This document shows, piece by piece, positions 6,878 to 25,068 of a stretch of 48,243 bases of DNA. The stretch is taken from positions 1 through 48,243 of the forward strand of contig JACNKZ010000031.1 in assembly GCA_014381785.1 (NCBI GenBank). Reading direction: 5' to 3'. Numbering within the stretch: position 1 is the stretch's first letter; each line of letters begins with the position of its first letter. The position numbers and the translations under genes are program-made. Source of the stretch: Kiritimatiellota bacterium. Its GTDB lineage: Bacteria; Verrucomicrobiota; Kiritimatiellia; Kiritimatiellales; Tichowtungiaceae. Below the pieces are notes generated by a model. It saw only the letters and a list, made by a program, of their open reading frames with translations. It was not told the origin of the DNA and ran no database searches.

Positions 6878-8190
6878 AAGAATCAATTACAGCCGATGTC
6901 GTCCTGTGGGGCAACACCATCGGATCCGCCGCATGGGATGCCGACCGGCAGCTGGCACTGTTTGAGTACGCGCCGGACTTCCTCGATAGTGGCATCGAAG
7001 TTGCGCCGCTTACTATGCCGCTGCGGGAACAGGTCTACGCATTCCCGGAACTGGCCCGCGAATCCTTTCACGGGCTGCCCGGCATGCTGGCCGACGCCCT
7101 GCCCGACCGGTTCGGCAACCTGCTGATCGACGAATGGCTCGTCCGCACAGGGCGCACGCCCGCCGATTTCACGCCGATCGAACGCCTGTGCTATCTCGGG
7201 CGGCGCGGCATGGGAGCGCTCGAATTCCGCCCCGCCCTGCGCGACCGGCAGAGCGGCTCGGTGCCAGTCAACGTGGCGGAGCTGGTCGACCTGGCCAATA
7301 CCGCTCTGGCGCAAAAGGAAATGCTCGTCACGAAAATTGCCCCGGAAGACGAAGAGAAGCTCGACGGAATGCGCGACATCCTGCGGGTCGGCACCTCAGC
7401 CGGCGGAGCGCGCGCCAAAGCGGTCATTGCGTGGAACGAAAAAACCGGCGCCGTGCTCTCCGGACAGGTGAAAGCCCCGCCAGGCTTCGGCTACTGGTTG
7501 ATCAAATTCGACGGCGTCTCCGGTAACCGCGACAAAGAACTCAACGATCCGCAGGGCTTCGGAAAAATTGAATACGCCTATCACCGCATGGCGGTCGCGG
7601 CCGGACTCGAAATGAGCGAGTGCCGCCTCTTCGAAGAAAACGGACGCAGCCATTTTATGACCCGCCGCTTCGACCGCACCGACGACGGGAGAAAGATTTT
7701 CATGCAGTCGCTGTGCGGCATTGCCCACATGGATTTTAATCAGGCGGGGGCCTATGGCTACGAACAAGCGCTCGATGTTGCGCAGCGCCTTGGCCTCGGC
7801 ACAGACACACTTGAACAGCTCTTCCGCCGCATGGTCTTCAACGTGATGGCGCGCAATCAGGACGATCACACCAAAAACATCGCCTTCCTGATGAACCGGA
7901 AAGGGGAATGGAAACTCGCCCCGGCCTACGACATCATCTACTGCTACAACCCGGACGGCGCATGGACTCGCCACCACCAAATGAGCGTCAACGGCAAACA
8001 CGACCACTTCGAACGGGCCGACTTCGAGGCCGTCGCCAAACGCTTCAACCTTCTAAAAAAATCCGGCATCGATCAGGTGCTTGAAGAAACCGCCGCCGCC
8101 CTCGCCCGCTGGCCGGACTTCGCCACCGAAGCCGGCGTGCCGGAACAAACCATCCAGCAGATCGCTGCCCACCACCGCCGGATCGTCTGA
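6874..8190 (+). CDS. hipA: HipA-family serine/threonine kinase toxin
   Basis: HipA kinases phosphorylate a target such as glutamyl-tRNA synthetase and induce growth arrest and persistence. The 438 residues show the N-terminal HipA domain (about 1-120), the glycine-rich GTSAGGARAKAV loop, and the catalytic loop NQDDHTKNIAF (residues 328-338). The metal-binding LAPAYDIIY Asp follows. All catalytic residues look intact, so the toxin is probably active. It is overlapped by the antitoxin gene by four bases. Target specificity cannot be deduced. Confidence 0.93.
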   Translation: MKESITADVVLWGNTIGSAAWDADRQLALFEYAPDFLDSGIEVAPLTMPLREQVYAFPELARESFHGLPGMLADALPDRFGNLLIDEWLVRTGRTPADFTPIERLCYLGRRGMGALEFRPALRDRQSGSVPVNVAELVDLANTALAQKEMLVTKIAPEDEEKLDGMRDILRVGTSAGGARAKAVIAWNEKTGAVLSGQVKAPPGFGYWLIKFDGVSGNRDKELNDPQGFGKIEYAYHRMAVAAGLEMSECRLFEENGRSHFMTRRFDRTDDGRKIFMQSLCGIAHMDFNQAGAYGYEQALDVAQRLGLGTDTLEQLFRRMVFNVMARNQDDHTKNIAFLMNRKGEWKLAPAYDIIYCYNPDGAWTRHHQMSVNGKHDHFERADFEAVAKRFNLLKKSGIDQVLEETAAALARWPDFATEAGVPEQTIQQIAAHHRRIV

Positions 8191-8197
8191 GCTTCCA

Positions 8198-8344
8198 CCC
8201 TATTGCATAGGGGCGCACAGATTTTCCAAGGTTTGGAAGCAGGCTGAGCCTGCACCCATTCAATTTTCCAATGTTTGGAAAAATTGTTGCCCTTGCGCCG
8301 CGAAGCGCTGAAATGCAACGAAGTTGCTTCCAAGGCTTGGAAAA
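8198..8344. repeat. Repeat cluster: three palindromes plus two accessory modules
   Basis: In order: module B, CCCTATTGCATAGGG (8198-8212) plus GCGCACAGATT; palindrome TTCCA-AGGTT-TGGAA (8224-8238); module C, GCAGGCTGAGCCTGCACCC (8239-8257); palindrome TTCCA-ATGTT-TGGAA (8266-8280), extended to CAATTTTCCA / TGGAAAAATTG; palindrome TTCCA-AGGCT-TGGAA (8328-8342). It fills almost the whole hipA-leuS gap. Module C recurs exactly, inverted, at 37994-38012, again beside a palindrome. Module B recurs at 17759, 24739 and 34171. Confidence 0.85.
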
Positions 8345-8388: not shown

Positions 8389-10926
<2,538 letters not shown>

Positions 10927-22305: not shown

Positions 22306-23025
22306 ATGAAGATGAAATTGCTCAGGTATCTCACGGCAGGATTGATTTCCTTCTGCGTGTGCGCGATGACGCTTCACGCTCAGGAACCGGATCCGAACCC
22401 GGATCCGAACCCTGCCCCAGCACTCAGCGGCGGCGAAGAAAAAGTAATTGAAACCCTCGCGGCTGAATTTTCCGACTTTGCCGGAGAAAACAGCGAGCCA
22501 TTGGTTGAAGCATTACGTGCCGGCGACTCGTTGAGCTATGCCATTGAAGTGGAACAGCCTGTTCTGGATAGTCAGGGCAACCCTGTTCTGATTGATGTAA
22601 CCAATCCGGACGGATCCGTATCACAGGTTCCGCAAATGGAACTGGTAGAACAGACCGTCATCGCAGAAAACTCTGTAGGTCCGATGGGGTTCGGAAACGT
22701 CAAGCTAGCCCTCGGTCTGGCGGAAGCCTCTTTGCCGGAAGGGTCGAGCTATCAGGACATCGTGAGGTCCCTGTTCGACAGTGATGCCGCCAGCGGTATT
22801 CTTGACATGCGCGCGGCGGGCATGGGCTGGGGAGACATCTATCGTTCGTTCGACCTCAAGGTCGGGGATGTCATGCGAAACGAAAACGCCGGCCTAGAAA
22901 ACAAGCCCGAGAAGCCGGCAAAACCAGAGAAGCCGGCAAAACCCGAGAAGCCGGCAAAACCCGAGAAGCCAGCAAAGCCCGAGAAGCCGGAGAGACCGGC
23001 AAAGCCCGAGAAGCCGAATGAATAG
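22306..23025 (+). CDS. Secreted protein with KPEKPA-repeat tail
   Basis: A signal peptide (about 1-25, ending TLHA) is followed by a DPNPDPNP stretch, an acidic segment, and a module reading GNVKLALGLAEA...GMGWGDIYRSFDLKVGDV. Similar 'GxGWGxI...LGxKxG' sequences recur in secreted proteins of several phyla, usually of unknown role. Residues 200-238 are KPEKPA repeats, highly basic and acidic in alternation, suited to binding polymer or cell wall. GGAG precedes the ATG. It lies 13 bases after the barrel gene, with which it is probably exported and used. A shared terminator follows. Function unknown. Confidence 0.8.
   Translation: MKMKLLRYLTAGLISFCVCAMTLHAQEPDPNPDPNPAPALSGGEEKVIETLAAEFSDFAGENSEPLVEALRAGDSLSYAIEVEQPVLDSQGNPVLIDVTNPDGSVSQVPQMELVEQTVIAENSVGPMGFGNVKLALGLAEASLPEGSSYQDIVRSLFDSDAASGILDMRAAGMGWGDIYRSFDLKVGDVMRNENAGLENKPEKPAKPEKPAKPEKPAKPEKPAKPEKPERPAKPEKPNE
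22903..23019 (+). repeat. In-frame minisatellite encoding KPEKPA
   Basis: Tandem 18-base units (AAGCCCGAGAAGCCGGCA and variants) make up the 3' end of the gene. Near identity of units at DNA level suggests recent slippage expansion, so copy number may vary between strains. Confidence 0.85.
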
Positions 23026-23076
23026 CCCATTATGAAAGGGACCTCATGTCGTTTCGGAACGACGAGAGGCTCAAAG

Positions 23077-24111: not shown

Positions 24112-25068
24112 ATGAGCGAACCATTTCTAATTATGGCACCGATGCGGGGCATCACGACGATGCATTACCGCAAAGCGTTTGTGCGGCACTTCCAGGGGCT
24201 GGACGCAGAGATGGCGCCGTTTGTTGCGACGGTCGCCGCAGAGAGAATTAATCCCAAGCTGCTGAAGGATGTGCTACCGGAAAACAGCTCCGGTCTTCCG
24301 ATCATCCCGCAGTTGATCGGCAACAACGCCGCCGACTTTGTGAATATGGCCCGCGCGCTACACGACCTCGGCTACAACGAGGTAAACTGGAATCTCGGCT
24401 GTCCGCATAAGCCCATCCGAAACAAGCAGCGGGGCTCCGGCCTGATCCCCCGCCCCGAGCGGGTCGATAAGCTACTCACCGAGATTTGCGCAGGGAGTCC
24501 CTGTAAAATCTCCGTTAAAGTTCGACTCGGAGTTTCGGACAAGTCGGAAGTGATGCGGCTGATTCCGGTGCTCAACCGTCACCCGCTGAGCGAGGTGATT
24601 GTCCACCCGCGCACAGCCGAGCAGATGTATGACGGCACCGTCGATCTCGCCGCGTTTGCAGAAGCCTCCAGGCTCATTGAACATCCCATCTGCTACAACG
24701 GCGACATCAACGACCTCTCCTTTTTCCAAGCCTTGGAACCCTATTGCATAGGGACGCACAGATTTATGCTCGGCCGAGGTTTGCTTGCCAATCCGTTTCT
24801 ATGCGAGGTGATTAAAAGCGGCAATCCGAAAACGGAAAACGCAATTAAGCGACTCAGGGGATTCCACGACGAGGTATTCGAAAATTACCGCTCCGTCATT
24901 GACGGCGATCTTCCAATGCTTGGAAAAATGAAAGAATTCTGGGCTTACCCGTCGCAGAACCTTTCCAATGGTCGGACGTTTTTCAAGAAGGTGAAAAAAT
25001 GCCACCGACTGGCGACCTATCAGGAGATCGTCAGCGAGTTTCTCGCCGATGCGGAGTGGGCGGCCTAG
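24112..25068 (+). CDS. tRNA-dihydrouridine synthase family protein
   Basis: Dus enzymes use FMN/NADPH to reduce uridines in tRNA. The 318-residue protein shows APMRGITT, the catalytic cysteine loop NWNLGCPHKPIRNKQRGSGL, CKISVKVRLG, VIVHPRT, CYNGDI and MLGRGLLANPFL. The C-terminal helical RNA-binding domain is short. Between NGDI and MLGRG lie residues encoded by a composite repeat (FFQALEPYCIGTHRFM), where other Dus proteins have an ordinary loop. A second palindrome encodes LPMLGK. Subfamily (A, B or C) is not assigned. It overlaps the convergent PilZ gene by four bases. Confidence 0.92.
   Translation: MSEPFLIMAPMRGITTMHYRKAFVRHFQGLDAEMAPFVATVAAERINPKLLKDVLPENSSGLPIIPQLIGNNAADFVNMARALHDLGYNEVNWNLGCPHKPIRNKQRGSGLIPRPERVDKLLTEICAGSPCKISVKVRLGVSDKSEVMRLIPVLNRHPLSEVIVHPRTAEQMYDGTVDLAAFAEASRLIEHPICYNGDINDLSFFQALEPYCIGTHRFMLGRGLLANPFLCEVIKSGNPKTENAIKRLRGFHDEVFENYRSVIDGDLPMLGKMKEFWAYPSQNLSNGRTFFKKVKKCHRLATYQEIVSEFLADAEWAA
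24724..24765. repeat. Composite repeat (palindrome plus module B) inside the dus gene
   Basis: Palindrome core TTCCA-AGCCT-TGGAA (24724-24738) is directly followed by CCCTATTGCATAGGG (24739-24753) and ACGCACAGATTT (24754-24765). The second half matches the hipA-leuS intergenic copy at 8198-8223 base for base except one position. It stays in frame and encodes FQALEPYCIGTHRF. Confidence 0.88.
24911..24925. repeat. Second palindrome copy inside the dus gene
   Basis: Exact core TTCCA-ATGCT-TGGAA followed by AAA, read as LPMLGK in the C-terminal domain. Confidence 0.85.

Follow-up and report, generated by a model that had tools for sequence, protein, structure and literature searches.

A palindromic spacer module that probably overwrote part of a tRNA-dihydrouridine synthase gene in Kiritimatiellia, and the helically phased palindrome that accompanies it

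The gene dus of a Kiritimatiellota bacterium contains a 42-bp segment that would represent one unit of a repeat system, composed of an interrupted palindrome A, the presumed core of the system, followed by a second palindrome B and a short linker (together the B-linker). We consider it fairly likely that A is a putative site for a symmetric protein positioned on one face of the helix and that part of dus was overwritten by the B-linker. The window, that is the whole stretch of 48,243 nucleotides that was analysed, is contig C72 of the 2.22-Mb draft genome G000.

Results and discussion

A repeat module in the coding sequence of dus

The Dus domain PF01207 is matched in the 318-aa protein, and the structure model of this protein (pLDDT 93.9) is nearest to E. 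coli DusC structures, with TM of 0.82-0.85. Domain and fold both place the protein in the Dus family, and its named relatives belong to the Kiritimatiellales and the Pontiellaceae. The gene contains the following features:

24112..25068, + strand: dus, tRNA-dihydrouridine synthase, 318 aa (Pfam Dus E 7e-34; DusC-like model)
24724..24738, + strand: palindrome A1, TTCCAA-GCC-TTGGAA (TTCCAAGCCTTGGAA), in-frame FQALE
24739..24753, + strand: palindrome B, CCCTAT-TGC-ATAGGG (CCCTATTGCATAGGG), reads PYCIG in place of KRFPT/KCFPT-type residues
24754..24765, + strand: linker of 12 nt (ACGCACAGATTT), reads THRF
24911..24925, + strand: second A copy in dus, reads LPMLGK; the same site is kept in G009 (12/12) and G001 (11/12)

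A1, B and the linker form a module of 42 bases (24724-24765) between the motifs NGDI and MLGRG. A preliminary description of this DNA had placed a palindrome plus linker in frame between these motifs, which we confirm for positions 24739-24765. The composite repeat that it proposed was correct as to the B-linker, but the 42 bases also hold palindrome A1, which had gone unrecognised. A1 is one among hundreds of A palindromes in G000, and an A-like sequence is also present at its site in several dus orthologues that have no B.

The dus 42-mer is identical at 41 of 42 positions to the unit of a tandem 42-bp array located 3′ of a frame on contig C13, which we take to be recA-like from its C-terminal sequence. 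For the B palindrome, 2 matches were found against 0.08 expected, and the B-linker has 7-9 copies in G000 against 0 with a reversed-pattern control, so that these matches are not explained by chance. Chance convergence of codons in dus was likewise rejected, given the match to the recA-3′ unit and the loss of an almost invariant Phe-Pro.

The same module had also been described as intergenic. The B-linker is indeed found upstream of an 845-aa ORF starting at 8389, where it is followed by a series of A units:

8198..8224, + strand: intergenic B-linker, 26/27 identical to the dus copy, 7 nt past the stop codon at 8190
8224..8238, + strand: A unit abutting the B-linker
8239..8253, + strand: palindrome GCAGGC-TGA-GCCTGC of 6-3-6 form, lying within the 27 nt that separate two A units; also found at L144:3263-3277
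8266..8280, + strand: A unit, 42 bp (4 turns) past the preceding A
8328..8342, + strand: A unit, 62 bp (6 turns) past the preceding A

The B-linker as a spacer between A units

Twenty copies of the B-linker could be aligned without gaps. The outer two stem pairs of B vary, CG alternating with GC and CG with TA; pairing holds in 94 % of cells, and the covariation is 0.332 compared to 0.153 after shuffling (0/500). In 18 of the 20 copies the adjacent A matches 10/12 positions or more, and in the remaining two 7/12 and 8/12; in nearly all copies a clear A is located 13-16 bp upstream or 24-30 bp downstream of B. Where both A of an A-B-A arrangement are clear, they are 41-43 bp apart, or four turns. 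The GCAGGC-TGA-GCCTGC palindrome likewise sits between A units 42 bp apart, so that B is probably not the only module used in this way. We read B as a covarying hairpin-like element adjoining an A, one of several modules that serve as spacers in phased A arrays. REP/BIME elements, which are extragenic, resemble this arrangement in that palindromic units alternate with a limited set of spacers (here A, the B-linker and other 6-3-6 spacers). Unlike REP/BIME elements, half of the A copies are genic and their spacing follows the helical turn.

Alternatively the B-linker may be an RNA hairpin that serves stability or termination at mRNA 3′ ends and that reached dus by accident. The covarying stem agrees with such a function, as does the location of many intergenic copies, in sense orientation, just past a stop codon; three times a TAG within B itself ends the frame (a uxuA-like gene and a HAD-like gene in G009, and a gene in G024). 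A U-run directly past the stem is however not seen, Rfam gave no match, and the perfection of the palindrome could also stem from the symmetry of a protein dimer or from template-switch repair. We regard the RNA hairpin as rather unlikely. In another genome, G027, a run ACAGATTACACAGATGCGCACAGATTTTTAATCC at L106 (G027:C31:11499-11520) resembles the linker and may be kin to the intergenic AATCTGTG-type repeats of other bacteria.

Abundance and conservation of palindrome A

The consensus of A is TTCCAA-NNN-TTGGAA. The corresponding pattern TTTTCCAANNNTTGGAA matches 320 + 290 times in G000 (610 strand-matches, where one palindrome may count on both strands) compared to 1 match for the control. 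Genomes in parts of the class Kiritimatiellia contain some 300-800 copies of A. Many families of the class, though not all, are rich in it, with up to 837 forward matches, and it is found at most once in the sampled genomes of the phylum outside this class. The genomes G018-G020, which derive from Pontiellaceae isolates, have 155-289 forward matches. Within a single genus, four genomes (G005, G007, G008, G012) have 20-35 forward matches and others (G000-G003, G009, G010) have 240-400, and this roughly tenfold drop makes the genus a natural setting in which to look for the cognate protein.

Among known repeats, HIP1 comes closest to A as regards abundance and patchy occurrence between related lineages. 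HIP1 is the highly iterated palindrome GCGATCGC of cyanobacteria, of debated function (PMC4390886), and it propagates by nucleotide substitution according to the title of reference 6 in that paper. Unlike HIP1, A has a different sequence, a 15-bp interrupted palindrome that is helically phased and more concentrated in intergenic DNA. Its length of 15 and its free centre point to a protein that binds as a dimer rather than to a methyltransferase octamer.

In 435 kb of G000, using home-made ORF predictions, 58 of 117 A copies are in predicted genes and about 56 are between genes, which corresponds to a density 6-7 times higher between genes than within them. The intergenic copies are found in tandem (37), divergent (12) and convergent (7) gaps, roughly by gap length, and the genic copies are distributed 30/22/6 over the three frames according to the same gene calls. 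A role of A as a promoter-operator is not favoured given this spread over all three kinds of gap.

Twenty-nine segments with genic A copies of G000 were compared to G009, G010 and G001. No local gap was found in 54 of the 62 comparisons, and perfect arms are kept at 32 of 60 sites, with the NNN centre differing in 18 of those 32. The codons of the arms are identical in 164 of 186 cases compared to 93.5 expected from the same codons elsewhere (P 5e-28), so that the arms are kept at the DNA level beyond the need of the protein.

Three A-rich segments, in AroB (L134:16484-16541), an AceE-like gene (L139:17295-17384) and a PlsY-like gene (L132:19457), differ in length by about 3-15 residues among relatives. 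These length differences are real and indicate that some genic A sites are in indel-prone regions.

A units are spaced by whole helical turns

In stretches of seven genomes, adjacent A units are spaced by 22, 31/32, 41/42, 52, 62/63, 73/74, 83, 95, 104/105 ... bp. A period of 10.45 bp at phase zero fits best (R=0.88, n=120; Rayleigh test, P about 2e-41), and the phasing persists once the most common class, that of 31 bp, is removed (R=0.79, n=51, P about 1e-14); as the A-A pairs are not all independent, these P values are rough. G000 alone provides 21 distinct spacing values, and 0 of 20000 simulations were as phased. The spacers have mostly unrelated sequences and lengths fixed at 7, 16/17, 26/27, 37 and 47/48 nt.

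Whole-turn spacing is what an array of protein-binding sites displays, and it would put a protein on one face of the helix; neither an RNA hairpin nor a transposon is expected to give it. We consider it likely that A is a binding site for a putative protein on double-stranded DNA. The symmetric half-sites and the same-face spacing of 2, 3, 4 ... turns are those of operator or nucleoid-protein arrays. Unlike such arrays, A has hundreds of sites genome-wide and does not prefer promoters. In parts of the Kiritimatiellia we hypothesize a chromosome-wide system in which a putative dimeric protein occupies several hundred A sites set in whole-turn arrays within genes as well as between them, the genic sites constrain codons and residues, and homology between sites leads to overwriting by spacers as in dus; we would put the chances of this broader proposal at about even.

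Some genomes of other families contain ordered A arrays such as 22-31-31-30-22. In one family of the class, perfect A units are arranged with near-symmetric spacing of 22-30-31-31-31-22, 22-31-31-30-22 or 22-31-30-22 at G104:C1:7080-7265 (L246:2083-2264), L247:2043-2193, L249:1985-2135 and L250:1990-2109. The arrays of this family are possible operator, partition or origin-like sites.

Alternatively, A might serve as an uptake sequence in a lineage with natural competence, with uptake bias keeping the genic copies and B being incidental. As with the uptake sequences of Neisseria and Pasteurellaceae, there are hundreds of A copies and about half of them are genic, including orthologous sites in weakly conserved stretches. 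In contrast to uptake sequences, A has a long and perfect symmetry around an interrupted centre, and neither helical-turn spacing nor the ordered arrays would be expected from uptake. We consider an uptake sequence improbable and retain the protein-binding site as the preferred reading of A.

A helix-turn-helix-like family (L073) has several paralogues in G000 (contigs C85, C19, C87, C26, C50 and C7). Some of the matches cross an in-frame TGA and one member is fused to a YpsA-like domain.

Replacement of a dus segment without change in length

Besides G000, 22 genomes contain a family-level dus orthologue with 64-80 % identity, of which one ends before the site and 21 cover it. The number of residues from NGDI to MLGRG equals that of G000 in all 21, and distant Dus homologues from Firmicutes, including Lachnospiraceae, and from Bacteroidales also align without gaps at the module site. 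This equal length points to a length-neutral replacement. The preliminary description had the repeat inserted in frame and predicted a clean presence or absence of 42 bases (14 codons) in the Dus alignment; since all orthologues have the same length there is none, and the module in dus is very probably not an insertion.

The residues at the site are FFQALEPYCIGTHRF in G000, FFQALEPYCIGVHRF in G009, FFQTVDKCFSTLNRF in G010 and FFQTLDKCFPTLGRF in G001, and mostly FFQxLEKRFPTIxRF in family f2. G009 shares the module; elsewhere among the relatives the site holds either an A-A pair or plain residues of the RFPxI type. Relatives lacking the repeat thus carry other residues, and the earlier claim of repeat-derived DNA in frame within the dus coding sequence stands, for a single lineage made of G000 and its sister G009. 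Both G000 and G009 have Tyr-Cys-type residues in place of Phe212-Pro213 (alignment numbering, G000 positions), which is at least 90 % conserved across these phyla. An artefact of the draft metagenome assembly (MAG) was rejected, as G009, a single 3.88-Mb contig, has the segment too.

A Dus tree built without the module segment places G000 and G009 as sisters (support 96/85), so one event in their common ancestor suffices. In that ancestor the B-linker would have overwritten about 21-27 nt of dus in a length-neutral manner. Between G000 and G009, 10 of the 11 codons of the dus A+B block are identical, compared to 139 of 239 same-residue codons elsewhere.

The model of Dus has a helix at 202-207, after NGDI, and a strand at 217-220, before MLGRG. 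Residues 210-214, encoded by B, together with those of the linker make up the end of the short helix and the loop into the next strand, predicted to be the alpha7-beta8 loop of the TIM barrel. The alpha-to-beta loops of a TIM barrel are on the face opposite the active site, and we propose that the overwritten segment is tolerated because of this location.

A second gene provides a comparison. On contig C32 a YpsA-like gene contains an antisense linker-B plus A in frame (EICACLCNRFPNLG), and its G010 orthologue has two in-frame A units at the site (IFQALEKLPEFFPNVGK). One A of the pair seems to have been exchanged for the B-linker with 6 extra residues, which would mean that length neutrality is not general for B. 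A clean 14-codon insertion was rejected here, as G010 has the A-A pair and G000 only 6 residues more.

The preliminary description had likened the repeat to the mobile palindromes of Rickettsia. Rickettsia palindromic elements are elements of 105-146 bp with a long stem-loop and terminal inverted repeats, whose in-frame insertions add residues (PMC2229807). As in Rickettsia, copies are found in intergenic DNA as well as in frame within conserved genes, and true indels are located next to A sites in the AroB and AceE-like segments. The likeness fails on size and structure, the module being 42 bp with two short 6-3-6 palindromes, and on the mode of gain, residues in dus being replaced one for one; the main palindrome is moreover helically phased and conserved. 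A mobile palindrome that inserted in frame and was compensated by a deletion of the same size needs two coupled events, leaves neither a target duplication nor a larger element here, and is at odds with the unchanged length of the Dus orthologues and with the gap-free majority of the other coding A comparisons. We consider it very improbable.

Direction and route of the replacement

The B-linker followed by A is found away from Dus in G010, G003 and, in another family, G024, and the Dus of G010 is without the B-linker, which argues that Dus was the recipient; the near identity of the dus and recA-3′ copies would also suit Dus as the source of fragments copied out to other places, but the same distribution leaves that direction hardly credible.

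We favour the following route from A-like sequence to the present segment. The ancestral dus of the Kiritimatiellales, as reconstructed from few relatives since only four genomes of the genus have a full-length orthologue, would already have contained A-like DNA at this site, in some cases two copies spaced by 22 bp. The B-linker would then have overwritten the segment downstream of A1 in the last ancestor shared by G000 and G009, leaving the length unchanged. The likely route would be ectopic gene conversion or a template switch, with A as the shared homology that primed it, and an A-B-linker-A array like that 3′ of recA may have been copied. We are evenly divided on whether the B-linker reached dus by this means. 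Of the candidate donors seen, the array 3′ of recA is the nearest in type, and the replacement could have taken several small steps instead of one copying event.

Should the overwriting of dus be as proposed, a repeat module replaced an almost invariant Phe-Pro without change in length, a route of protein change that scans for insertions miss. Hundreds of phased palindromes appear to shape codon use in ordinary genes of the Kiritimatiellia, and finding the cognate protein would put a name to a new chromosome-organising or regulatory system of bacteria that are known largely through metagenomes. Our literature search found the A motif in no paper and nothing joining Kiritimatiellota with palindromic repeats, within a coverage that leaves out most subscription journals.

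The window contains one further repeat, an 18-bp tandem array of the AAGCCCGAGAAGCCGGCA type at 22885-23028, located at the 3′ end of a 239-aa ORF, where it encodes KPEKPA-like repeats.
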